This document shows positions 2,392-28,784 of a stretch of DNA of 37,587 nucleotides, piece after piece (the stretch's first letter is position 1; every line of letters starts with the position of its first letter). The position numbers and the translations under genes are program-made. Origin of the DNA: Actinomycetota bacterium. GTDB lineage: Bacteria > Actinomycetota > JAUVYG01. The notes under the pieces were generated by a model. It saw only the letters and a program-made list of their open reading frames with translations, had not been told where the DNA came from and ran no database searches. The DNA is taken from contig JAUVYG010000009.1 in the NCBI GenBank assembly GCA_030603185.1, positions 1 to 37,587 of the forward strand, read 5' to 3'.

Positions 2392-3294
2392 GTGCAAGAA
2401 CAATGCGAAGACAAACAGGTAAAAGTGCTAGTGGTCGAAGACAACATCGGCGACTACGATCTGCTCCTCGAAGCACTTGAGGACGTTCCCGGGTGCAACA
2501 TAGAGCTACAGCATGTTGAGACGATCAAGGCAGCAACAATGGCACTTCATAACTGCTCCTTCGACCTCGTCACCTTGGATCTTTCCCTTCCTGATGCTCA
2601 GGGCCTAGAGGCCTTTGAAGCTATTCATCATGTCTGCCCTCACACCCCGGTGATAGTACTCACCGGCAACGACGACGAATCAATGGCAGTGAAAGCTGTG
2701 GGCATGGGCGCCCAAGATTACCTCATAAAGGGTCGCATTGAGGGTGAACTTCTATCCAGGTCAATCCGGTACGCGATAGAGCGTCAGCGCATGATGGATG
2801 AACTGCGCTCCATGTCATTGATCGATGAGCTCACAGGGCTCTACAACCGCCGTGGTTTTCTTACTCTGGTCTCACAGCAGCTAGTAGCTGCCCAGAGAAC
2901 AAATACGAACATGCTGCTTCTGTTCATAGATCTAGACGACATGAAGCCCATCAACGATCTCCATGGTCATGATCAGGGTGATCGGGCGCTGACAGACTTT
3001 GCAGAGATACTAAATGAACAGATGAGACAATCAGATATCGTGGCGCGGATGGGCGGGGATGAGTTCGTCATTCTAGCTCCGGACGCAGCCCACACCAATG
3101 CCGGTCAACTTGTCAGCCGAATATTGAATGCGGTCGACCGGCACAACGCGGAGACCGATCTTCCCTATGGGTTGTCAGTCAGCATCGGTGTTGCCCACTA
3201 TGAGTCCGATGAACCGAAGACCGTTGATGAGCTATTGGCTGAGGCCGACCACCACATGTACCAGCACAAGCGCAGCAAGAAAGAGGCTGTCTAG
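2392..3294 (+). CDS. Response regulator with GGDEF diguanylate cyclase output
   Basis: Receiver domain (VLVVEDNIGDYDLL...VTLDLSLPDAQG), then LIDELTGLYNRRGF and ARMGGDEFVIL. An RxxD I-site (RQSD) lies 5 residues before GGDEF. Confidence 0.93.
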   Translation: MQEQCEDKQVKVLVVEDNIGDYDLLLEALEDVPGCNIELQHVETIKAATMALHNCSFDLVTLDLSLPDAQGLEAFEAIHHVCPHTPVIVLTGNDDESMAVKAVGMGAQDYLIKGRIEGELLSRSIRYAIERQRMMDELRSMSLIDELTGLYNRRGFLTLVSQQLVAAQRTNTNMLLLFIDLDDMKPINDLHGHDQGDRALTDFAEILNEQMRQSDIVARMGGDEFVILAPDAAHTNAGQLVSRILNAVDRHNAETDLPYGLSVSIGVAHYESDEPKTVDELLAEADHHMYQHKRSKKEAV

Positions 3295-4628
3295 CCCGTA
3301 TCGCCGTGCCCATTCGCAATTTGTGCTGTGATAGTGGATGCCGCAACGTACATCTTCACAAAGTCTCCCTCGGTCAGACCCAGTAACTCGAATGTCTCGT
3401 TGCTCACCCCGAGGCCCCGATGAGTGTCCACACCACCGTAGCCAGATAGATTCACCACAAATGTTCGTTTTGTGTAGCTCCCCGTGAACGGTTCAACAGC
3501 TATACGCACAAGTGCTCCCAGCGGCTGGACCGCGTCGGCCTTCTTCCCAACGTATACCCTGACGTCGAACTTGTGCTGCTCCCCCTCCCATACCGCAGGG
3601 GTGGCCTCGACAAGCTGGGATACGGTATAGGGATAGGGATTTCTGTCCTTGCCGAATTTCTCGTGGTAATGCTCAATGCTGTCGTCTATCTTCCGTCCGA
3701 CAGCATTCATGTCATTTACCACATCGATTCCCGAGCCGCCGCTACCACCGTGTGGTTTGATGACTACCTGGCCAAGAGCAGCAAGTCCGTCTCGGCAGGC
3801 ATTCTGGAGCTCCGACCTGTCCCTAGCCGTCCAGCAACGGATTGGTTCGACTCCCAGAGGCTGCAATGCTTCAGCGAATTCCTGGACGGCTCTATAGGTC
3901 GCCGACTTGTCGTCAGATACGTGGAACGTCTCGTTGACGATCTTGGTCTCGAGCGACCCTGTCAGAAGGTGACGGGCGATGGCCGGGTGCCTGCGAGCTA
4001 CGCCATCGCCGACCATCACAGATATCGACTTACCCCCGAACCGAGCCCTTGCCCCTGAGAGAGAAAGCCCCGGTAGAACTTTGTCATAACCCCCTATGAC
4101 CACCTGGGCATCGGGTGTGATACCGGAAAGAAAATCACTTGCCGATGCGATCTCTCCCTTTCCCCTGCCGGTGTCCTTCAACATTTTCGAGTACGACTCG
4201 GCCAAGATCATCTTCTCGTATAGGATCAGATCACTGCTCGGGTGGCCTATGAGCACGAACGGTCGATCGTCACCACAATCCGAGAGCGCCTCGAGATATC
4301 CGACAACACTAGCCTCCCAGCCCTCATCGGGAAGGACCGCAAATCCCCTACTGCTTCCCCCATTGGTCTCGAGGATATAGTAGCTATTGTCCTTGGGCTG
4401 ATCCCCCTTCTTAACCATGAAATCAACCGAACCGGCATAGAACGATTGACCCTTGAGCTTATTCAACGGATAGCTCTTAAAGAACTCCATCGCCTCGCGG
4501 TACAGAGAATGATTGAGCTCAGCGTCCTGCCGGTGTCGTATGTCCGAAAGAGAGATCTGACGGTTGCCGAAATAGGTCCCAGCGACGCGAATTAGATTCT
4601 CGACCGCCTCAGGGTCAACATATTTCAT
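3291..4628 (-). CDS. ATP-grasp / tubulin-tyrosine-ligase-like ligase domain protein
   Basis: 445-aa ORF with a glycine-rich ATP-grasp-like motif (GQVVIKPHGGSGGSGIDVV) and a downstream HKFDVRVYVGKKA motif typical of ATP-grasp/TTL-like domains. Confidence 0.7.
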   Translation of the reverse strand: MKYVDPEAVENLIRVAGTYFGNRQISLSDIRHRQDAELNHSLYREAMEFFKSYPLNKLKGQSFYAGSVDFMVKKGDQPKDNSYYILETNGGSSRGFAVLPDEGWEASVVGYLEALSDCGDDRPFVLIGHPSSDLILYEKMILAESYSKMLKDTGRGKGEIASASDFLSGITPDAQVVIGGYDKVLPGLSLSGARARFGGKSISVMVGDGVARRHPAIARHLLTGSLETKIVNETFHVSDDKSATYRAVQEFAEALQPLGVEPIRCWTARDRSELQNACRDGLAALGQVVIKPHGGSGGSGIDVVNDMNAVGRKIDDSIEHYHEKFGKDRNPYPYTVSQLVEATPAVWEGEQHKFDVRVYVGKKADAVQPLGALVRIAVEPFTGSYTKRTFVVNLSGYGGVDTHRGLGVSNETFELLGLTEGDFVKMYVAASTITAQIANGHGDTG

Positions 4629-4649
4629 CTAGGGTTCAGTCCAGCGAAT

Positions 4650-5843
4650 TCATGCATACTTCAGGGTATACAGTGGAGTCGCAACGCTTACAATGTCTGC
4701 GAGAGAATGTCTCTGCACAGCCTCTAGAACTTCTTCTCCCCGATAACCATAGGGAAGATCCCTTGTATCGCTCAGGATGGTGGCCCGCTGGCCCTCGCGT
4801 AACTCGAAGACAGTTTTCCCGTCCATCTGGGTCGCCGAGATACTGTCCGGGGTCATATTAAGAGAATATCCTCCACCATGAGGCATTATGTTCGATGTGA
4901 GAATGTCATCCAAGTGCCCGAGATCGACAGCTCTTTGATGCCACCCCGATCCCTTTATTGCCTGCGGTGACAGGTTCTGTCGAATGTTCATAAGGTAGGT
5001 CGGTAGGTCGGGCCGAAGAGTGAGAGGGAATACGCTAGACTCACCGGACCTATACACTCCGAGCGAGGCTGAACCATCTCCGGACAACCCCTGATGGGTC
5101 ACATTGCATATTTCATCGCACTCGCCGAATAGGGTCTTTGCGATGTAGCTTCGCTTCTTTTGCGCAAACTCATCTACCAGTCGGTAGCGATCGTTGTAGT
5201 CTTCAGCGACGGGACCCTCAAGCACAAGCAAAGGACCGTACTCAGTTTGGCACCACTGACCACCTCGCTCGATCCACGCATCATAGTCATACATCTCGCT
5301 CTTCAGCTCAGAAGGAGATGTATGTATCACCGCAACTACCTCGCCGGACCGAATATCCGGATGAATAGAGGATGTTACCTCGCTTACTTCTACGAAGTGA
5401 TTGCTCACCCCGATATTGAGCACGAGGTCGGATCCATCAATAGTCAACCTCTTGTGGCCCATGGATTGAATGCGCTGCCATAACTGGTGGGCAGAGGGCG
5501 GCCCTTCGATGCGGACGACGATAACGCCGCATGCATTGGGTCGCAGCTCAGGAAATGCAAAACTACGACCGGCATCTTCCTTGGTCGGCCAGCGAATCAA
5601 ACATCCATAGCCAAAACCGCTGGCCCATCGCTTCTGGTTGCGAGTGATTCCGCCATCAGGCGAAAAAAGACAGCTCACCCGCCCCGAGTCCACCCCTCGG
5701 TCCTCGAGAACCGTCTTCATCTTGGCTAATCCGAAGGCCACATTCTTCTCTGCCAGCATGGCGCTGGCGTCCCCGACAGCGAGGGAGTAGACACTGTCAC
5801 TAGCTCTAGACAATAGATCGGATCTACCGGTGACTTGAACCAA
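4650..5843 (-). CDS. Divergent RtcB-family (RNA 3'-phosphate ligase-like) protein with altered catalytic motifs
   Basis: Ordered matches to RtcB recalled by eye: PNACGV (vs DI(N/G)CG), NIGVSNHFVEV (vs GTGNHFIEI), VIHTSPSEL (vs HSGSRG), CNVTHQ (vs CHHN), GVYRSGES (vs VTRKGAV), GWHQRAV (vs SHGAGR), and C-terminal DLPYGYRGEEVLEAVQRHSLADIVSVATPLYTLKYA (vs EIPMAYKDIDAVMAAQSDLVEVIYTLRQVVCVKG). The start appears to be TTG. Confidence 0.7.
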   Translation of the reverse strand: MVQVTGRSDLLSRASDSVYSLAVGDASAMLAEKNVAFGLAKMKTVLEDRGVDSGRVSCLFSPDGGITRNQKRWASGFGYGCLIRWPTKEDAGRSFAFPELRPNACGVIVVRIEGPPSAHQLWQRIQSMGHKRLTIDGSDLVLNIGVSNHFVEVSEVTSSIHPDIRSGEVVAVIHTSPSELKSEMYDYDAWIERGGQWCQTEYGPLLVLEGPVAEDYNDRYRLVDEFAQKKRSYIAKTLFGECDEICNVTHQGLSGDGSASLGVYRSGESSVFPLTLRPDLPTYLMNIRQNLSPQAIKGSGWHQRAVDLGHLDDILTSNIMPHGGGYSLNMTPDSISATQMDGKTVFELREGQRATILSDTRDLPYGYRGEEVLEAVQRHSLADIVSVATPLYTLKYA

Positions 5844-18964: not shown

Positions 18965-20511
18965 GAGTTTCTCCGTGCCCTGATACTGGTTCTATCTACA
19001 GGTCGGTACTGAAGAGCCTCAGCAACATGCTCTTCAGTGACAACTCCACCTTGACCACCCATTTGAGATATTGTGCCGGCGATCTGCCCAACCTTATTGA
19101 GCGCCCGAGCACTCAACCCAAGTCGCTCGATCGCGTCGATCATCATACGTCTAGCGGGCGCCGTCGGCTGGCTGAATTTGGGATCCGGGGCTCGAGTTGC
19201 TATGTCCTGCAGTGATGCGGCAACCCGAGCTCTGACTGCTATAGTCGGCTCGTCGCCAGCGACACTGGACAGCTCGCTCCCACTTAGACGCGGAACCTCT
19301 ACATGCATATCTATCCGATCCATCATCGGACCGGAGAGTTTCGCAAAGTACTCATCTGCTCTTCCAGGAGGACATGAGCACTGCTTGAAGCGATCCCCCA
19401 GAAATCCACACTTACAGGGATTGGTGGCGCCTACGAGCATGAAGTCTGCAGGAAATCTGAACCTTCTCATTCCCCGAGTGATCGAGACCACCTTCTCTTC
19501 GAGGGGCTGCCGCAAACCATCCAGCACTGCAGATGAGAACTCACGCATTTCATCCAGAAATAGGACCCCGTTGTGGCTCAAGCTGATTTCTCCTGGGCGA
19601 GGTTTGTGCGCCCCACCGCCTATTAGCCCCGGAAGGGTGGTCGTGTGATGAGGGGCCCGAAACGGCCGATTAGCAATCAATCCTCTCTCCGGCTCCAGAA
19701 GGCCGGCGACGCTATATACTCTGGTCACTTCGAGCGCCTGCTCCTCGGTGAGAGGCGGCAGGATCCCTGGTAGTGATTGGGCCAACATGCTCTTGCCAGA
19801 ACCAGGGGGTCCGACCATCAAGAGGCTATGCCTACCAGTCGCCGCGATTTCTATCGCCCGCTTCCCATGGGCCTGTCCCCGAATATCTGCCAGATCCACC
19901 AGGGTCTCAGTGGGCGGTTGCACAATCATTTCTCGGACCGCCTCAGAGTATGCCAACAAGGAGCATGACTCTTCCTTGCCGCCGGTTAGCCATTGGATGA
20001 GTTCTCTGAGATTCGCTGCCCCGAGAACTTGCACCCCAGGGACAAGTCTGGCCTCAGCAATCTGCTCGCGTGCGACCACGATTCCCTTTAGCCCAAGCGA
20101 ACGTGCTGCCTCAGCTAGGACGATCCCACCTGGGACCGGCCGAACCGTTCCATCCAACCCCAGCTCACCGGCAAACAGGTAACCGTCGGCTGCGCCTGTG
20201 GGAATCAATGATGCTGCCGATAGGACCGCAACCGCGATAGGAAGATCGTAGAGCGGCCCAGCTTTGCGAACATCTGCCGGCGCTAGATTGACCAATATCC
20301 GGCGCATCGGAAAGACAACACCCGAATTGTTGATGGCAGCCCTTACACGCTCCTTTGACTCTGTGACAGCCGCATCAGGTAGTCCGACAATGTTGAACAC
20401 CGGTAAACCATTACTGATATACGCCTCTACTTGCACGCCTACCGCTTCGACACCCATTGGACTGGCACATACGACTCGTGATATCACGCTTTCCCCCTTT
20501 AGATCGGTCAA
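18961..20511 (-). CDS. comM: YifB/ComM family Mg-chelatase-like AAA+ ATPase
   Basis: GLPVFNIVGLPDAAVTESKERVRAAI, VGPPGSGKSMLAQSLPGILPPL, HTTTLPGLIGGGAHKPRPGEISLSHNGVLFLDE. Confidence 0.96.
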   Translation of the reverse strand: MTDLKGESVISRVVCASPMGVEAVGVQVEAYISNGLPVFNIVGLPDAAVTESKERVRAAINNSGVVFPMRRILVNLAPADVRKAGPLYDLPIAVAVLSAASLIPTGAADGYLFAGELGLDGTVRPVPGGIVLAEAARSLGLKGIVVAREQIAEARLVPGVQVLGAANLRELIQWLTGGKEESCSLLAYSEAVREMIVQPPTETLVDLADIRGQAHGKRAIEIAATGRHSLLMVGPPGSGKSMLAQSLPGILPPLTEEQALEVTRVYSVAGLLEPERGLIANRPFRAPHHTTTLPGLIGGGAHKPRPGEISLSHNGVLFLDEMREFSSAVLDGLRQPLEEKVVSITRGMRRFRFPADFMLVGATNPCKCGFLGDRFKQCSCPPGRADEYFAKLSGPMMDRIDMHVEVPRLSGSELSSVAGDEPTIAVRARVAASLQDIATRAPDPKFSQPTAPARRMMIDAIERLGLSARALNKVGQIAGTISQMGGQGGVVTEEHVAEALQYRPVDRTSIRARRNS

Positions 20512-20665
20512 ACCGGAACGAATACTAGGTCACCCCATGCCCTCTATCCAGGGTCAGCAGCATCTTAGAGTTGTTTGGGGGCAAACAGTATCGCCAGAAA
20601 GAGCGACTCACAACATATGCCCGAGCATGATAGGATGTGTCTCGTATGTTTTTGAAAGGTGCTTT

Positions 20666-21280
20666 GTGGTAGACGAGACTAATTCATATCAAGCCCAGGC
20701 TGATGAGGGCATTGAAGAAGAAGAAGAAGAAAGTAGAAGTCGCGTAAAACGCGTGGGCATTGCATTGCTCATTCTGTTCCTGCTTCTCCTGCTCCTCCTA
20801 TATCTATCTGGTCTGAGACAATCTGATGCGCCCGCTCCAGCGATTGTAGCCCCCATTTCCTTTGAGGGATCCTGGACGGAAGTAGCAGAGTTCACTGGCC
20901 GTACTGTGGAAGATGACGTAACGGCTTCAGTCCCGACCAAAGTCGAGCAGACTGATACATTCATTACCCCGGGCGAGCAATGGCGGATCACCTGGGAATC
21001 CAACCCGGCTGAGGGTGGTCTTTTGAGCAATGACACTCAGTTCGTGTTCTTCCTCAGACCTAAGATCGAGATCGATGGACAAGGTGACAACCTGCTGATC
21101 GTTGGGATCGCGACTGAACCCAGGAATGCTGTTTGGAATATGAGAACCCCACCCGGCGAATACTTCTTCAACGTTGAGACGCGCAATTCTGAGTGGACGA
21201 TTAAAATCGAGAGTCTGGATGCAGTAGATCCCCCCGGGAACCCAGATGTGAGCGCTGAAGCAGACTCAGCGACCGACTAG
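20666..21280 (+). CDS. Hypothetical single-pass membrane protein with acidic cytoplasmic N-terminus
   Basis: In-frame GTG at 20666 with a purine-rich AAAGGT upstream. VVDETNSYQAQADEGIEEEEEESRSRVKR, TM helix VGIALLILFLLLLLLLYLSGL, and a ~145-aa soluble domain. The longer ORF start at 20264 runs antisense through comM and is not favoured. Confidence 0.65.
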   Translation: MVDETNSYQAQADEGIEEEEEESRSRVKRVGIALLILFLLLLLLLYLSGLRQSDAPAPAIVAPISFEGSWTEVAEFTGRTVEDDVTASVPTKVEQTDTFITPGEQWRITWESNPAEGGLLSNDTQFVFFLRPKIEIDGQGDNLLIVGIATEPRNAVWNMRTPPGEYFFNVETRNSEWTIKIESLDAVDPPGNPDVSAEADSATD

Positions 21281-22000
21281 CCTGCGCCCCAGTACGATCA
21301 GAACAAACTTAGGAAGAGCAAGGGCCCTACCCCATCTAGATGGCGAAAGAGCCACTCGGTAAAGCCACTCAATGCCCAGTTTTTGCGTCCACTCAGGTGC
21401 TCGCTTCGCTCGCCCAGATAGAACATCCAAGCTTCCCCCGACTCCTATGGCCACCTTAGCCTTGAGGACATTCGCATGTTTCTCGATCCAAGCCTCTTGC
21501 CTTCCAACCCCCAAAGCTACCAGTAAATAATCGGGTTGAGCCTCATTAATGGCATCAATGATCCGGCCATACTCAGAGACGTCATGGTACCCATGCTCGA
21601 CGCCCACTATTTGAAGACCCTGGTGCTTCCGGGAAAGAGCGTCGGCGGCCTCTTGGGCAATCCCAGGCTCTGCTCCGAACAGGAAATACTTTGCCCCTCG
21701 TTCGCTACTCTTAGCGGCCGTAGCTTGAGTTAGATCGATTCCCGGTACTCGATATGGAAGCTTTGCAGCCCATTGGACCCCGACCGAGTCAGCGACGATA
21801 AGGTCTGCAGTCTCAATAGTATTCCGCAGCGCCGTGTCTGTACGGGCTTGAACGGACATCTCTACATTCAGAGTAACAACCCTCTTGCACAGGCCTTGCT
21901 CCGAGCAAAATCCTTCAAGCACTGAAACCGCCTCATCGAGAGTCAGCACGTGAACTGGAAGGTCTAGAACCTTTTGTGACCTCAGAGCTACCGCGGTCAA
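21266..22000 (-). CDS. WecG/TagA/CpsF family glycosyltransferase
   Basis: VVTLNVEMSVQARTD...ADLIVADSVGVQWAAKL, YFLFGAEPGIAQEAADAL, PDYLLVALGVGRQEAWIEKH, IGVGGSLDVLSGRAKRAPEWTQKLGIEWLYRVALSPSRW. Confidence 0.95.
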   Translation of the reverse strand: MTAVALRSQKVLDLPVHVLTLDEAVSVLEGFCSEQGLCKRVVTLNVEMSVQARTDTALRNTIETADLIVADSVGVQWAAKLPYRVPGIDLTQATAAKSSERGAKYFLFGAEPGIAQEAADALSRKHQGLQIVGVEHGYHDVSEYGRIIDAINEAQPDYLLVALGVGRQEAWIEKHANVLKAKVAIGVGGSLDVLSGRAKRAPEWTQKLGIEWLYRVALSPSRWGRALALPKFVLIVLGRRLVGR

Positions 22001-22764
22001 GCCGCCTCGTCCTTGGGGAGGCTTGAGTAGTAGGCCTTGAGGCGTCGGTACGGTCTGTACAGCAAATGAGCCCCACCGAGCAAAACAACGAAGATGATCA
22101 GGTATTTAATCCAGACTGGGTCACCCGTTACCCCGGCGATTATTCCGAACAGGGTAAAGAAGAACAGTTGCTCGCCCATGCGAAATCCGGCAAGTGGCAT
22201 TATCCTGTCGATTGCTCCCTCGAAGGCCTCGAACTCCTCGTCCGATCCAGAATCTGCCTCATCTTCATCCCTGACCGGATCAGGTATTTGGCAGTTCATC
22301 TGGCTGTAGTACTCAAGCATGAATAGCAGGAAGAAGGCGGCAAATCCGAGGGGCCAGATAGTCACATCGTCGGTAACAAGGTAGTAGCCCCAGATCAATG
22401 CCAGGACTAAGAAGAACTCTCTGATCCTGTCCGCAACTTGATCGAGCCACCCGCCAATGGCAGAACCGACCCCCTTGAATCTGGCAAGCTGCCCATCCGC
22501 GCAGTCCAGGATAAAGGCTATTTGCAGGAGGATCGACCCGACGATCAATGGAATCGGCTCCATGGTGAACATTAGATAGGAGGCCACAAGGGCCACAAAT
22601 AATGCAAAAAGGGTCACCTGGTTCGGTGTGACGGCGGTATCGCCCACAAGAGAAACGAACTTGTTGGCCAGTTTTGCGGAAAAGGTACGTGCGAACCAGC
22701 CATCTTTGGTCTTAATGGCGGCGCGAAGCCTTTCGGAGCGTTCAGTCACTCGCTGTCGCTCCAT
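21997..22764 (-). CDS. CDP-alcohol phosphatidyltransferase family membrane enzyme
   Basis: Exact CDP-OH-P motif D(x)2DG(x)2AR(x)8G(x)3D(x)3D: DCADGQLARFKGVGSAIGGWLDQVAD, in a multi-TM protein. Confidence 0.95.
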   Translation of the reverse strand: MERQRVTERSERLRAAIKTKDGWFARTFSAKLANKFVSLVGDTAVTPNQVTLFALFVALVASYLMFTMEPIPLIVGSILLQIAFILDCADGQLARFKGVGSAIGGWLDQVADRIREFFLVLALIWGYYLVTDDVTIWPLGFAAFFLLFMLEYYSQMNCQIPDPVRDEDEADSGSDEEFEAFEGAIDRIMPLAGFRMGEQLFFFTLFGIIAGVTGDPVWIKYLIIFVVLLGGAHLLYRPYRRLKAYYSSLPKDEAA

Positions 22765-23855
22765 AACTCTTCGACCAGGGCTGCAACCTCTTTCTCAGAC
22801 ATGGATTCCTTCTCGAGTATAGTGTAACGCCCGGGTCTGGTCTGCGGTGCTTTATAAATGGCTTGAGCTAGATCGCTATTGGACATGCCTACTCCAGCCG
22901 GTGTCATCGGCAGGCCCACTCTCTCAAAGAAATGGCGCAGAGCCTTCCAGTCCTTATTATGCAGTCGAGCTGTCAGTACTGTACCCATTGCTACCTGAGC
23001 TCCATGACTCGCTGGAGAACCAAAAAAGGCGTCCATGGAGTGGCTTACCTTGTGCTCTCCCCCACTGCAGGGCCTACTGGTACCACTGAGCTCCATGGCG
23101 ACCCCCGACAGCACCAAGCCGTTTACCAGCGTAGAAATGAACTTCTCGTGGTGGATATCAAATGTGGCATTGTGGGGATCCTGTCCATCGATGTCGAGCA
23201 CGGGAAGTCCCGAGGCCGCTCCATACAGGGAGCCAGCAGCCATCTCGGAGACCATTACGGCAAAGTCATCCACAAACTCACCCATGTCTCGATGAGCTAG
23301 CCTCCAGTCCTCGACCGCCATGAGATTAGAGAGCAGATCGCCAACACCTGCGCGGATGGTGTCGGCCGGGCTCTGCTGTATCACCTCTAGATCGATCACG
23401 ATCGCAGCAGGCATTCGAGCCCCCAGGCTTTCGGTGAAACCGTACTCATTCCGCAGCACGCTGACTGGCGAACATATACCGTCGTTCGAGATCTGAGTAG
23501 GAATACTGACAAAGGGCAGCTGTTTTTGGGCGGCGGCATACTTCCCTGCATCAAGCACCTTACCGCCGCCTATGCCGATGATGACATCGCATAACGGATC
23601 CGATCCGATCGCTTGCTGAATCCGTTCGGCCTCTTGGACTGTGTTGTCCGAGCAGACCAGGTTGCCGCATCCCTTGCCATTATTTTGACGCCCGATAATA
23701 CTCGAGCCCAGAATCCCGGCGCTGGTCTTTCCGGTCACGACATAAGGATGGGAATATCCAAGTCCCTCAAGCACCTCGTCCAGCTCAGCTTCTGCTGAAT
23801 CGACGCCTCTGGTGACTCTTAGATAATGAGGTACATTGATGCTTCTTAAGTACAA
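22746..23855 (-). CDS. sn-glycerol-1-phosphate dehydrogenase-like (EgsA/AraM family)
   Basis: VIIGIGGGKVLDAGKYAAAQKQLPFVSIPTQISNDGICSPVSVL, AGVGDLLSNLMAVEDWRLA, SGTSRPCSGGEHKVSHSMD, SHGAQVAMGT. Confidence 0.88.
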   Translation of the reverse strand: MYLRSINVPHYLRVTRGVDSAEAELDEVLEGLGYSHPYVVTGKTSAGILGSSIIGRQNNGKGCGNLVCSDNTVQEAERIQQAIGSDPLCDVIIGIGGGKVLDAGKYAAAQKQLPFVSIPTQISNDGICSPVSVLRNEYGFTESLGARMPAAIVIDLEVIQQSPADTIRAGVGDLLSNLMAVEDWRLAHRDMGEFVDDFAVMVSEMAAGSLYGAASGLPVLDIDGQDPHNATFDIHHEKFISTLVNGLVLSGVAMELSGTSRPCSGGEHKVSHSMDAFFGSPASHGAQVAMGTVLTARLHNKDWKALRHFFERVGLPMTPAGVGMSNSDLAQAIYKAPQTRPGRYTILEKESMSEKEVAALVEELWSDSE

Positions 23856-23884
23856 ATACTGCCGTTCAAAGGGGACACTTGGCG

Positions 23885-26878
23885 TTATTCTACCGTTAAA
23901 TAGCGGCTAGCCGAACAGTTGGGGCTGTGGTCCCAGTGCCATGATGTACAGACTTTGAGCCTGTACTCCCCCTTCGAGCTCGGCTTCCAGTAAAGATTGT
24001 AGACACTGGAGGCGTCAGTATTGGAGCTTGCCACCACCGCCCATCCGGTACTCGTCTTCCTCATCATCTCTACTTTGAGTCCGGAATGAAGGGGAAATAT
24101 TGTTCCCCACATCTGAGCCTGTTGGCCAAGCCCTATGGTCTTTCTTGCCAGTACGGCAGGGACATTGAAGTGCACGAGGGCGTAGTTGTTCGCCTGACCG
24201 GAACCGTAAATCCCATGCGGGCCGACTTTGGCTCGATAGAGTGTGTGATTCTTCGGAGTATCCCTTACTTGAGCCTTGCCGTTGGCGTCCGTGTTCACGG
24301 TCTTTATGGCCTTCCACTTCTCGGCTCCATAGGGTTTTTTCTCAAACTGAATGGCTCGTCCGCTCTTTGGCGTGACTCCGTCCAAGAGGGTCACCTTCAA
24401 TAGGGTAGAGTCATGACCGCTCCAGCCATAGACCAGCCTTTGCGGGATCACATCTAAGGTGATCTTTGGGTCACAATTCTGACGGACAAACTTTATTGCA
24501 TCGTATGCAAGGTTGGTGGTCCTGACTGTCTCTCCGGTGTTGGAAGGCAAGTACACCTTGGCGCCGGGACTCTTGTTGAAACGATATGTACCCAGATTCG
24601 CCCATTCCCCGCGGTTGGTGGACTGATTCAGATGAACCACACTGCTGCCGCCAGCACGGTAAATCGTGTATGTTGCGTTCTTTGATGTAGACCACCAGTA
24701 CGGGATGAAGGCGATAACCTTCCATTTGCCGGAGCATGAAAGTTCAGTCTTCCAGGTCGCTGATCTGGTTGGTGTGTCCTGAGTGTTCCAGCTTCTCCAA
24801 TAACTGGACTCATAGCCGCCACTCCCTCTCGAAGCCCAATTCGGCGAGGACGTATTGGCTCTGACAAAGCCTGAATCCTTGTCGTCAACGATCACTTCTT
24901 TGGCAAGCGGGCCAACCTGATCCCCTCCTCCGCCGGATCCCACTGTAACCACCCTAGTCCCGCTGCAGCCTGGACTATGATCCCAGTGCCATGTAGTGCA
25001 AACCCGAAGAGAGTAGCTACCAGCAGAGGGAGGTTTCCAGGAGAATGAGTACTGACTTGATCCGGTCGTCTTTTTGGTGACCAATCGAGTCCATGAAGCC
25101 CCTGTCTTCTTCTCGAGATATACCTCGAGCGATGGGTGGCTCGGATTGACCGAGCCCGACAGTGCTACGGAATCTCCCGGGGAAATCTGAGAGGACGATA
25201 TCTTAATCGGAACCGACATGTGATTCAGGGTATATCCGGTTCCTTCCCCGCCCCAATATGCACCATCACCACCGGCGACTGCCTTGTACAATGTGTGACG
25301 ATCAGGTTTATCGGTGATTGTGGCCTTGCCCCACGAGCTGGTCTTGTAAGCGCCGATCTTTGTCCATGCCGTGTCCCCATAAGGCTTCTTGAAAATATTC
25401 ACCCATCGGTCAGATAGTGGGAGTGACCCCGACATCAGGAAGGCTGAGACCTTTGATGAGTCGTGCCCCGAGTAACCGTAGGTCACTCTTTGCGGGGACA
25501 TCCCCATCGTGACTTTGGTCTCGCAACTCACGCGGTCGAAGCGGATCGCATCAAACGCTATCTGGGTGGTCTTCACCGTCTCTCCGGTGTTCGAGGGCAG
25601 GTCGACTCGCGCTCCGGGCGAATCACTGAATCTGTAGGTGCCGAGCACCTTCCACTTGCCCCGATTCTCGGCTTGATCCACCACAACCGAACTTTGACCC
25701 CCTGCGTGCGTAATCGTGTACCTAGCGGCGTGCGTGGTTGAGTACCAATATGGAATAAAGGCAGACACCTTCCACCTACCCAAGCAGCTCAGAGGTGTCC
25801 GCCACGTACCGACTCTAGTTGGATCATTCTGAGTGTTCCAGCTGGCCCAGTAAGTAGAGTTGTAGCCTCCTGAAGGTCTGCTAATCCAGTTTGCGGACGA
25901 GGTATTCGTTCGATCGAACCCAGAATCCTTGTTGTCCACATTCGCCCTAGAGGAGCCGTTCACCTCGACACCCCAGTAATAGTGCCTAAGAATCCAATCC
26001 CAGCTTTTTCCGTCTTTGGCCCAGCATTGAGAGCCCCATTGCGACAGCTTCCAACCATCCGGTTCGGTACCGCATGAGCCTGCTCGATATGATGCCTGGA
26101 ATATCTTTCCATTCTTGGTCATTCGGAACTGACTAACTGCATCCACCGCGGCCACGACAGACGCCGCTGGCTCACGATCTGGAATATACATCTGACTGTT
26201 GACCGAATCATCGAGATCAGCGACCACAGGATTGCCGTTCATATCAACGGTTGGGTCGCCGCAAACATCATTGGTGGTACGAGTTGCTTTGTACTTGCCC
26301 CCCTGATTCACCCAGTACCAGATATATGTCTTTGCAGCCATGGCCCCTGCCTTGAGGGCTTCCGGGTGCCAGCTCGTCAGCCATTCGTGACCAACGACAC
26401 GTTTGGTGTAATCACTAAGAGGAATCTCGTCAACGCTGACGACACGACCGCAGGCATCAGGATAGTAGCTTGGATAGCTGGCCTTGCAGGTGTTGTATGT
26501 GCTTCCACCGATCGTATATGTGTCTCCTCCGGTGTCGGCACATTTTTCACGACGCGCAATGCGAACGGTGGGCGGGGGTTGTACGTCTGAGTAGTAGGTA
26601 CCAGCGCTCTTCCCGATCCCCGGCAGGTTGCCCAATGCCTGAAAACTTGGTGATTCCGCAGTGCCGGCCATCCATTCGTTGCCTGGCGCGTCACGATCCA
26701 GTCCCATAGCACCGAGCAGTGGTCCATCTTGAACCTCAGCTCCGTCGGCAGCAGTGGCGGAATAGCACAACAAAATCGCGGCGAGCGCATATAAGGTCAG
26801 GAACAGCGGAATTCGCCTGAGGCATATTAGTCGAGTCTCTCTAATGAATAACATGGCTCCAGATCTGTTCGGGCACAC
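23885..26878 (-). CDS. Large secreted SpoIID-domain protein with two tandem golvesin-like plus Ig-like modules
   Basis: N-terminal hydrophobic segment (RRIPLFLTLYALAAILLCYSATAADGAEV). SpoIID-type region GRVVSVDEIPLSDYTKRVVGHEW...HPEALKAGAMAAKTYIWYW. Two homologous ~340-aa modules begin at (N)VDNKDSGFDRTNTSSANW and (I)VDDKDSGFVRANTSSPNW. Confidence 0.85.
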   Translation of the reverse strand: MCPNRSGAMLFIRETRLICLRRIPLFLTLYALAAILLCYSATAADGAEVQDGPLLGAMGLDRDAPGNEWMAGTAESPSFQALGNLPGIGKSAGTYYSDVQPPPTVRIARREKCADTGGDTYTIGGSTYNTCKASYPSYYPDACGRVVSVDEIPLSDYTKRVVGHEWLTSWHPEALKAGAMAAKTYIWYWVNQGGKYKATRTTNDVCGDPTVDMNGNPVVADLDDSVNSQMYIPDREPAASVVAAVDAVSQFRMTKNGKIFQASYRAGSCGTEPDGWKLSQWGSQCWAKDGKSWDWILRHYYWGVEVNGSSRANVDNKDSGFDRTNTSSANWISRPSGGYNSTYWASWNTQNDPTRVGTWRTPLSCLGRWKVSAFIPYWYSTTHAARYTITHAGGQSSVVVDQAENRGKWKVLGTYRFSDSPGARVDLPSNTGETVKTTQIAFDAIRFDRVSCETKVTMGMSPQRVTYGYSGHDSSKVSAFLMSGSLPLSDRWVNIFKKPYGDTAWTKIGAYKTSSWGKATITDKPDRHTLYKAVAGGDGAYWGGEGTGYTLNHMSVPIKISSSQISPGDSVALSGSVNPSHPSLEVYLEKKTGASWTRLVTKKTTGSSQYSFSWKPPSAGSYSLRVCTTWHWDHSPGCSGTRVVTVGSGGGGDQVGPLAKEVIVDDKDSGFVRANTSSPNWASRGSGGYESSYWRSWNTQDTPTRSATWKTELSCSGKWKVIAFIPYWWSTSKNATYTIYRAGGSSVVHLNQSTNRGEWANLGTYRFNKSPGAKVYLPSNTGETVRTTNLAYDAIKFVRQNCDPKITLDVIPQRLVYGWSGHDSTLLKVTLLDGVTPKSGRAIQFEKKPYGAEKWKAIKTVNTDANGKAQVRDTPKNHTLYRAKVGPHGIYGSGQANNYALVHFNVPAVLARKTIGLGQQAQMWGTIFPLHSGLKVEMMRKTSTGWAVVASSNTDASSVYNLYWKPSSKGEYRLKVCTSWHWDHSPNCSASRYLTVE

Positions 26879-26938
26879 TACTGATATTAATCGTCACAGA
26901 GCATAGCGTCCTTGAGCAGGCGGGCGATGTAATAGCTA

Positions 26939-27682
26939 TTAGACCTGGGCTTGGGACTGAATTCCCTGCAGGACTCCGGGTAGAATCTCTTCTCTCGCGA
27001 ACGCCAGGTCTTCATGTGTGTCTATCTCTGTCCAAGGCATCCCCTCAGTGCTGACGAAGGACACAGGATTTTCAACACAAAGTTTATCGATCACATGTTC
27101 GTAGAAACAGTCTAATTCATCGGACTCGATCATGGAATCCATCGTCTCAACCATAGTCTTGGCACGCTCGGCGCCAAATGCCATGATCCCGATGTATTCA
27201 CCAGCAGAGATCTCCGGATCAAGCAGCTTAGAGATCCGGGACAGTTGTCCGGACTGCAGGTAGACCTTCATCTCTTCTTCAGCAAGATCTTTAACATCGT
27301 CGAGGACAATATGGGTCTGGTCCGATGCCACGGATCGGGCAAGTATCTCGGGATGATAGATGATGTCAGAGTTAAGCAGGCGAAAACCGTCCAAGATCCG
27401 ATCCTTGACTACCCACAACGAGTAAATGTTATTGGCCGTCGCATACTTTGGGTTGAAAACAAGCTCAATGCCGGCTTCAGGGTACTTGTCGACCAGGTAG
27501 TCTAGCTTCTCTGCCTGGTAGCCAGTGACTATCGTGATCCCACTTATTCCATTTGCTACTAGAGCCTCGAGCGAATACTCGATCAACGGTTTATCGCCAA
27601 GGGGAACAAGGCACTTTGGCATCTCTGCGGTGACCGGCATAAGCCGCTCACCTTTTCCTGCCGCCAATATCACTGTATTCAA
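26939..27682 (-). CDS. LicC-like / sugar-phosphate nucleotidyltransferase (predicted phospho-alcohol cytidylyltransferase)
   Basis: VILAAGKGERLMPVTAEMPKCLVPLGDKPLIEYSLEAL, NPKYATANNIYSLW, LLNSDIIYHP, GEYIGIMAFG. Confidence 0.88.
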   Translation of the reverse strand: MNTVILAAGKGERLMPVTAEMPKCLVPLGDKPLIEYSLEALVANGISGITIVTGYQAEKLDYLVDKYPEAGIELVFNPKYATANNIYSLWVVKDRILDGFRLLNSDIIYHPEILARSVASDQTHIVLDDVKDLAEEEMKVYLQSGQLSRISKLLDPEISAGEYIGIMAFGAERAKTMVETMDSMIESDELDCFYEHVIDKLCVENPVSFVSTEGMPWTEIDTHEDLAFAREEILPGVLQGIQSQAQV

Positions 27683-27686
27683 AGAG

Positions 27687-28784
27687 TCATCCTTTCGCGG
27701 GTAATACTCGAAGTTCTTTCGGGAATGATGTCAGCATTTCAACCCCATCATCCCTCATTACGATCGTATCCTCTATCCTCACTCCACCGACGCCGGGAAT
27801 ATAGACCCCGGGCTCTATGGTGAAAACATTCATTGGCTCTAGACTCTCTTTGCCTGCGGGCGAAACGATCGGCCTCTCGTGTACCTCGAGGCCCACTCCA
27901 TGACCAAGTCCATGACCGAATGTCTCTGCTAGGCCATGCCTATCTAGTACCTCGCGAGCGATCTCGTGCACCTCAGATCCATTCATCCCTGGCCTGGCTC
28001 CAGATACCGCTGCAAGTTGTGCCTCCAGAGTCGCATCGTACATCTCGCGCTGCTTGTCACTCGCCTCACCCAAGACAAATGTGCGAGTGGTATCCGAGTG
28101 GTATCCATCGACCACGGCTCCAAAGTCGATGAGGACAAAGTCTCCTGCCTCGGCAGTTCTGTCACCGGGTACTGCGTGCGGGAGCGAACTGTGAGACCCG
28201 AAAGCGACGATGGTCTCAAAGGACACAGTCTCGGATCCGAACTTCTTCATCAAATACTCGAGTTCGTTCGCCACATGAGCTTCGGTCACACCGGGTACGA
28301 CATAAGGCAGCACAGCCTCGAGCGCCCGGTCCGCTATCGAGCAGGCCTTTCCAATGCTGATGACTTCCTGTTCAACCTTGACGGCTCTGATCTCTTCAAC
28401 GACGCCGGACATCTCGTACCACTCTCTTTGAAGATCGCCCTTTTGAAGCCGGCGCAGGTTGGCGACGGAAATGATATGTGCTTCGAACCCGATTCGGCCA
28501 GCTCGTAGTTCCTTTGTAATGTCAGCTGCGAGCTGGGTATATGCGTCGCGACCCCATTTTCGGATGCTCCATTCAGGAGCTTCGGTCTGAGCCTGCTCGA
28601 TGTATCGAAAGTCCGTATACAAGACTAAAAGGTCATCGGAAACAACAAGAGCTCCTTCTCCACCTCGGAATCCACTCAAGTAGGAGACGCTCTCAGGTCC
28701 GCTGATAACCATGGCTATGACGCCCTTTGTCCTCATGTGGAGCCTAAGAGACTCGATGCGCTCGCTATGAATCGGTGGCCTCAA
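27687..28784 (-). CDS. pepQ: M24 family Xaa-Pro aminopeptidase/dipeptidase
   Basis: FVLIDFGAVVDGYHSDTTRTFVLG, FGHGLGHGVGLEVHERPIVS, NVFTIEPGVYIPGVGGVRIEDTI. Confidence 0.94.
   Translation of the reverse strand: MRPPIHSERIESLRLHMRTKGVIAMVISGPESVSYLSGFRGGEGALVVSDDLLVLYTDFRYIEQAQTEAPEWSIRKWGRDAYTQLAADITKELRAGRIGFEAHIISVANLRRLQKGDLQREWYEMSGVVEEIRAVKVEQEVISIGKACSIADRALEAVLPYVVPGVTEAHVANELEYLMKKFGSETVSFETIVAFGSHSSLPHAVPGDRTAEAGDFVLIDFGAVVDGYHSDTTRTFVLGEASDKQREMYDATLEAQLAAVSGARPGMNGSEVHEIAREVLDRHGLAETFGHGLGHGVGLEVHERPIVSPAGKESLEPMNVFTIEPGVYIPGVGGVRIEDTIVMRDDGVEMLTSFPKELRVLPAKG

Follow-up and report, generated by a model that had tools for sequence, protein, structure and literature searches.

The stretch analysed here (the window; 37,587 nucleotides) is a contig of an Actinomycetota bacterium, JAUVYG010000009.1 of GCA_030603185.1, and corresponds to contig C9 of a 147-contig assembly that totals 1.81 Mb and is 95% complete. 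On its minus strand, flanked by pepP and comM, lie five consecutive genes for a cytidylyltransferase (CT), a SpoIID-domain protein, a sn-glycerol-1-phosphate (G1P) dehydrogenase (G1PDH), a CDP-alcohol phosphotransferase (PT) and a WecG/TarA-type glycosyltransferase (Table 1). The original prediction had placed these families at these positions; the coordinates match, and each assignment is backed by Pfam and NCBIfam. The close packing it described is also present: the PT gene overlaps wecG by 4 nt, and the G1PDH gene overlaps the PT gene by 19 nt if the latter starts at the ATG at 22764, or by 4 nt if it starts at 22749. Since the CT begins 4 nt after pepP, the gene set and aroC-aroKB-aroQ-pepP form a single co-directional run. 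Scans of the window for RNA families and tRNAs found none. Judged from sequence comparison, the cluster is probably a dedicated CDP-1-glycerol pathway of the bacterial cell envelope.

Table 1. Genes of the cluster and the adjoining pepP, in window coordinates.
Feature	Position	Strand	Assignment or evidence
CT, COG1213/LicC-PntC-type cytidylyltransferase	26939-27682	minus	Proposed CTP:sn-glycerol-1-phosphate cytidylyltransferase
SpoIID-domain secreted protein with two Golvesin_C domains	23885-26878	minus	Neighbour, probably no pathway enzyme
G1PDH (EgsA/AraM type), dihydroxyacetone phosphate to G1P	22746-23855	minus	NCBIfam, Pfam, tree
PT, CDP-alcohol phosphotransferase	21997-22764	minus	Proposed CDP-1-glycerol:acceptor glycerophosphotransferase; PF01066, 47 bits
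WecG/TagA/TarA-type glycosyltransferase, ManNAc or ManNAcA transfer to GlcNAc-PP-polyprenol	21266-22000	minus	Glyco_tran_WecG, 193 bits
pepP, Xaa-Pro peptidase directly upstream of CT	27687-28784	minus	Peptidase_M24, 245 bits; context only

The linkage of CT and G1PDH is not a matter of chance. Among 397 genomes sampled from the phylum, which include no other member of the window's class, 41 (the window's own included) contained a G1PDH homologue at E <= 1e-30. A same-strand CT adjoins the G1PDH gene, mostly overlapping it, in 35 of the 42 Actinomycetota loci other than the window, and two further loci stop at a contig edge. In a second set of 80 named loci, found with an alignment as query, the count is 73, mostly in Streptomyces and relatives but also in metagenome-assembled genomes (MAGs) of Caenarcanales and Bacilli, which cannot be read as a share of 80 independent observations since Streptomyces dominates the sample. 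Four of the seven exceptions are non-actinobacterial, and three of these are archaeal (two Geoglobus, one Methanofrustulum), where G1PDH serves the core lipids. When identical flanks of 1.5 kb were compared, a CT was present at 27 of 30 G1PDH loci and at none of 12 control loci carrying weaker iron-dependent alcohol dehydrogenases. A PT lies no more than 2.5 kb away in 22 of the 42 phylum loci and 63 of the 80 named ones. Gene order varies between lineages while content is kept: Streptomyces has large PT (with DUF5941)-CT-G1PDH-small PT-GT2-ABC permease-ABC ATPase and the window CT-SpoIID-G1PDH-PT, and the CT-G1PDH pair recurs in a Caenarcanales MAG (L096) and, in reversed order, in two Bacilli MAGs (L095 and L097). 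Streptomyces is represented in the phylum sample, proteins of one locus (L087) being up to 93-94% identical to those of Streptomyces muensis. At L064:9178-10816 and L082 there are second G1PDH copies that no CT adjoins; one is in a genome of the family that we label f2, with a PT directly upstream, and one in a Streptomyces-family genome.

The dehydrogenase proved, as predicted, to be of G1PDH type and not a generic iron-dependent alcohol or glycerol dehydrogenase. It scores 262 bits against NF002022 (G1PDH), below that model's curated equivalog cut-off of 413, and 95 bits against NF006941 (glycerol dehydrogenase); as the CT-paired bacterial G1PDHs of L094 and L096 also fall below the cut-off, at 237 and 242 bits, we treat the window enzyme as G1PDH-type and not as a formal equivalog. 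Solved G1PDHs that it matches are 5fb3, 4rgq and 4rfl, and its Asp-His-His metal ligands (D173, H268 and H284) are invariant in the G1PDH alignment and aligned with 5fb3 and 4rgq. In a maximum-likelihood tree, glycerol-dehydrogenase-like (GldA-like) rows split from the G1PDHs at 100/99 (the position of L014, a control row on a long branch, is unsure), and the window protein falls, with weak support, near the CT-neighboured bacterial G1PDHs of L094, L095 and L096 and Clostridium acetobutylicum 3ce9. A glycerol dehydrogenase is ruled out by the profile scores and the tree together, and family membership strongly suggests that the enzyme reduces dihydroxyacetone phosphate (DHAP) to G1P.

What else the genome encodes bears on where this G1P might go; absences here refer to family searches of the assembly at the thresholds used. 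We found no match in the genome for PcrB/GGGPS (PF01884), TagB/TagF (PF04464), myo-inositol-1-phosphate synthase (MIPS; PF07994) or phosphoenolpyruvate (PEP) mutase (TIGR02320), although control genomes likewise gave nothing over the cut-off of the last model. The earlier statement that PcrB and PEP mutase are missing from the window thus extends to the whole assembled genome, and archaeal-lipid and phosphonate routes remain unsupported, as does a CDP-inositol/di-myo-inositol phosphate pathway, whose key enzyme would be MIPS. The genome has GpsA, so that the second, mirror-image glycerol phosphate (sn-glycerol-3-phosphate, G3P) has its own maker, as well as pgsA, located next to cinA, and another gene that is PgsA-like; this complement indicates that ordinary G3P lipids are made and that the G1P maker is separate. 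Two contigs, G000:C103 and G000:C104 (L027 and L028), end in identical PgsA-like sequence, which points to a redundant or broken copy in the assembly; on the other side of C103 is a mannose-1-phosphate guanylyltransferase/phosphomannomutase-like gene. It could be supposed that G1P enters membrane lipids, either archaeal-type ether lipids or heterochiral lipids via PlsY, while the CT and PT act on another substrate: Streptomyces G1PDH has been taken as archaeal-lipid potential (PMC6431249) and both PlsY and PlsC accept G1P (PMC13400652). With no PcrB/GGGPS homologue in the genome, and a CT-G1PDH association conserved too tightly for enzymes of unrelated substrates, we give this suggestion very little credence. 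The genome also encodes three GT4 enzymes of WecA/TagO type and three LCP ligases, and a UDP-N-acetylglucosamine (UDP-GlcNAc) 2-epimerase gene adjoins a UDP-ManNAc-dehydrogenase-like gene and an LCP gene; linkage-unit enzymes are therefore present without the classical glycerophosphate transferases.

The CT has a COG1213 fold, with the nucleotide-binding motif LAAGxGxRL...PK and a C-terminal W-x-E-I/V-D in the alignment. It matches Pfam NTP_transferase at 57 bits; its best PDB match by sequence is LicC (1jyk, E 9e-27), followed by PntC, and its AlphaFold2 model (pLDDT 95.7) has PntC-AEPT (TM 0.84-0.88) and LicC (TM 0.74-0.79) as its best folds. E136, M138, K152 and E195 are among the residues invariant in the G1PDH-linked CT family and would be pocket residues. 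Resemblance to PntC and LicC, in a protein to which NCBIfam gives no specific assignment, could mark an enzyme that activates phosphocholine, phosphoethanolamine, aminoethylphosphonate or a sugar phosphate, with the G1PDH reducing a different ketone phosphate as supply; this is very unlikely, because a G1PDH is a poor partner for such substrates, neither PEP mutase nor MIPS was found in the genome, and the neighbouring PT resembles AF2299 of Archaeoglobus fulgidus. That the CT acts on G1P is strongly suggested by its fold and by its adjacency and co-conservation with G1PDH, mainly because gene content is shared across lineages while order differs. The fold is capable of activating three-carbon phosphates, since CpgD, a relative from Caulobacter (a phosphoglycerate cytidylyltransferase), produces CDP-glycerate (PMC12275187).

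The PT carries the catalytic motif D-x2-DG-x2-AR-x8-G-x3-D-x3-D at residues 87-112 (DCADGQLARFKGVGSAIGGWLDQVAD), exact as first reported. Its predicted model is of the short six-helix type and has the AF2299 fold, its long helices being of membrane type; AF2299 is the best match by sequence and by profile and the top fold match (TM 0.66-0.70, against about 0.4 for PgsA), and the tree joins the window PT with AF2299 and AfDIPPS at a moderate 89/89. A structure of AF2299 with CDP-glycerol has been determined, its donor pocket is small and hydrophilic, and neither AF2299 nor DIPPS processes lipids (PMC4634129, PMC8633023); kinship with such an enzyme makes a soluble CDP-alcohol donor likely for the window PT. 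The same kinship would suit a compatible solute, diglycerol phosphate or glycerophosphoinositol as in Archaeoglobus, made by linking CDP-1-glycerol to G3P, G1P or inositol phosphate, and a CTP:glycerol-phosphate activity of A. fulgidus lysate is recorded as preferring G1P (cited in PMC8262930). Such a solute is nevertheless decidedly unlikely as the product, given that no inositol-1-phosphate synthase was found in the genome and that the overlap with TarA/WecG, together with the polysaccharide genes and TagGH of relatives, fits a surface product better.

Streptomyces loci carry two further kinds of PT. BLAST identities to the window PT of 35-38% for the large form and 23-31% for the small hinted that the large form is its orthologue, but the tree, by placing the window PT with AF2299 and DIPPS, does not support this and only a functional analogy is claimed. 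In the small PT downstream of G1PDH (L087:10693-11472 and its equivalents in L094-L173, from Streptomyces and relatives), the last motif Asp is replaced in all 63 cases, by Ala in 37 and His in 26, so this protein may be regulatory, may act as a scaffold or may use another mechanism. The large PT (L087:7082-8917) ends in DUF5941 (304 bits), and the linkage of this domain to CT-G1PDH suggests its involvement in glycerophosphate transfer. DUF5941 might also supply extra membrane helices, as in PTs with lipid acceptors, and in this respect it would be consistent with a Kennedy-like route, in which CDP-1-glycerol is used with diacylglycerol to give phosphatidylglycerol of the usual headgroup configuration, its phosphate on sn-1' of the head glycerol, without PgsA and phosphatidylglycerophosphate phosphatase, or to give another glycerophospholipid. 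The PT family does serve phospholipids, and LicC and PntC, to which the CT fold is akin, feed headgroup pathways. Moving sn-glycero-1-phosphate to diacylglycerol would yield phosphatidylglycerol of the natural headgroup configuration, and so stereochemistry alone cannot reveal a lipid product. We think the route unlikely, since the genome holds the standard pgsA and a second PgsA-like gene, the TarA overlap and the TagGH/GT2 context favour glycans, and lipid-acceptor PTs usually have three to four more helices than the short window enzyme (PMC4634129).

The surroundings of the gene set point towards an envelope glycan. The WecG/TarA protein matches TarA at 153 bits, the superfamily model TIGR00696 at 142.5 bits (cut-off 69) and WecG at 119 bits. 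CT-G1PDH is accompanied by a WecG homologue and a PT in eight of the nine family f2 loci in which a PT was found, at a distance of about 7-11 kb in seven of them and of about 23 kb in the other, a result that supports the TarA/WecG link of the window. TagG and TagH homologues occur in 63 of 122 loci. SpoIID, which was at first counted within the gene set, must be removed from it: the protein (Pfam SpoIID, 43 bits; Golvesin_C, 105 bits over two stretches) has no homologue near related G1PDH-CT loci and is ruled out as a pathway member. As for the product, where the original prediction left a phospholipid headgroup, a compatible solute and a teichoic-acid-like polymer side by side, the TarA/WecG gene, in the window and in related clusters, and the TagGH-type exporter and GT2 enzyme of Streptomyces favour a teichoic-acid-like envelope glycan, and the other two are less favoured. 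Genes for type I phosphodiesterase/nucleotide pyrophosphatase proteins, possibly phosphoglycerol-handling enzymes, were observed in CT-G1PDH clusters of f2 (L058, L062, L076 and L024, in several copies) and in L096. Convergent with wecG in the window is a gene for an acidic membrane-anchored protein (20666-21280, plus strand), whose longer open reading frame (20264-21280) had no Pfam or NCBIfam match in our scans, and two co-directional genes encoding 445 and 397 aa lie at 3291-5843 on the minus strand.

We propose a model of four steps, of which the core, from DHAP through G1P and CDP-glycerol of sn-1 configuration to phosphotransfer, had been put forward for this locus before and is the best-supported reading, given CT-G1PDH co-conservation, the type of the dehydrogenase and the AF2299-like PT. 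First, the G1PDH would reduce DHAP to G1P and, second, the CT would join G1P with CTP to form CDP-1-glycerol; both steps are strongly suggested, the first by family membership and the second by co-conservation and the COG1213 fold. Third, with CDP-1-glycerol as donor, the PT would pass sn-glycero-1-phosphate to an alcohol acceptor, a step moderately suggested by its kinship with AF2299. Fourth, and least certain as regards both acceptor and product, the acceptor would most likely be a GlcNAc-ManNAc(A) glycan that is linked to undecaprenyl and that TarA/WecG has extended, and LCP ligases would link the product to the wall. The PT would thereby fill the role of TagB/TagF, enzymes missing from the genome, and the product would bear sn-glycero-1-phosphate, the stereochemistry of lipoteichoic acid (LTA), through a cytosolic nucleotide route like that of wall teichoic acid (WTA).

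Several observations weigh against this model. Besides the score of the dehydrogenase below its equivalog cut-off, the closest solved relatives of the CT act on phosphocholine and 2-aminoethylphosphonate, and substrate specificities within COG1213 are hard to infer from sequence. The acceptors of AF2299 and DIPPS are soluble, and six-helix PTs are thought unable to take lipidic acceptors (PMC4634129), which fits poorly with a polyprenyl-linked one. The PTs near CT-G1PDH in other lineages belong to other subclades of the tree, those of Streptomyces are not close kin of the window PT, and WecG accompanies the gene set only in the window and in one other family. The most general form of the proposal, a widespread bacterial CDP-1-glycerol pathway whose PTs replace TagB/TagF and build teichoic-acid-like glycans of lipoteichoic stereochemistry, is offered as tentative and somewhat short of probable.

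The solute pathway of A. fulgidus (AF2299 and the IPCT-DIPPS protein AF0263) shares with the proposed pathway a G1P supply, a cytidylyltransferase and a CDP-alcohol phosphotransferase with a soluble donor, of which AF2299 is nearest to the window PT; in the window, however, the enzymes are separate and not fused, no MIPS was found, the context is one of glycans and TarA, and the host is a bacterium with its own G3P lipids. The WTA pathway (TagO/TagA/TagD/TagB/TagF) offers a TarA-type transferase, a CDP-glycerol donor, a UDP-GlcNAc 2-epimerase and LCP ligases, but the window pathway would have the opposite glycerol configuration, a CT non-homologous to TagD, which is of the HxGH type, and, in place of TagB/TagF, a CDP-alcohol phosphotransferase that is an integral membrane protein. 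Type I LTA consists of units of the sn-glycerol-1-phosphate kind predicted here (PMC8341164), although these come from phosphatidylglycerol outside the cell and not from an intracellular nucleotide donor. CpgD, PntC and LicC are of the COG1213 type and activate small phosphates for envelope lipids or glycans (PMC12275187), whereas the window CT family, tied to G1PDH, would use another substrate and shows a set of conserved residues particular to it (E136, M138, K152 and E195). The Bacillus AraM-PcrB pathway to heptaprenylglyceryl phosphate likewise employs a bacterial EgsA/AraM G1PDH, yet the window genome has no PcrB. Similar content is found in the Streptomyces region in which araM, a CDP-alcohol phosphotransferase, a sugar-phosphate nucleotidyltransferase and tagGH stand side by side; its PTs differ in subclade and one of the two lacks the last catalytic Asp. 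The passage of PMC13118837 on this arrangement presents it as synteny without a pathway, and we found no pathway assignment for it in the open-access papers searched.

If the proposal is true, its consequences reach beyond this genome. The standard rule is that LTA receives its sn-1 units from phosphatidylglycerol and WTA its sn-3 units from CDP-glycerol (PMC8341164, PMC5974469), and Litschko et al. (2021) considered that bacteria probably lack CDP-1-glycerol and that the sn-glycero-1-phosphate of their surface polymers comes from other donors (PMC8262930); a G1P-to-CDP-1-glycerol pair beside PTs in many Actinomycetota would break this stereochemical rule. The CT would also become a candidate gene family for the G1P-preferring cytidylyltransferase activity of A. 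fulgidus, which PMC8262930 records as an activity without an assigned gene. Finally, bacterial G1PDH would gain a use other than lipid synthesis, with a bearing on arguments about the lipid divide and the last universal common ancestor (PMC6431249, PMC5059525). Earlier work discusses the G1PDH of Actinobacteria as a potential for archaeal lipids (PMC6431249), and much of the bacterial G1PDH record that has been read in this way, that of Streptomyces included, would then belong to the chemistry of the cell wall.

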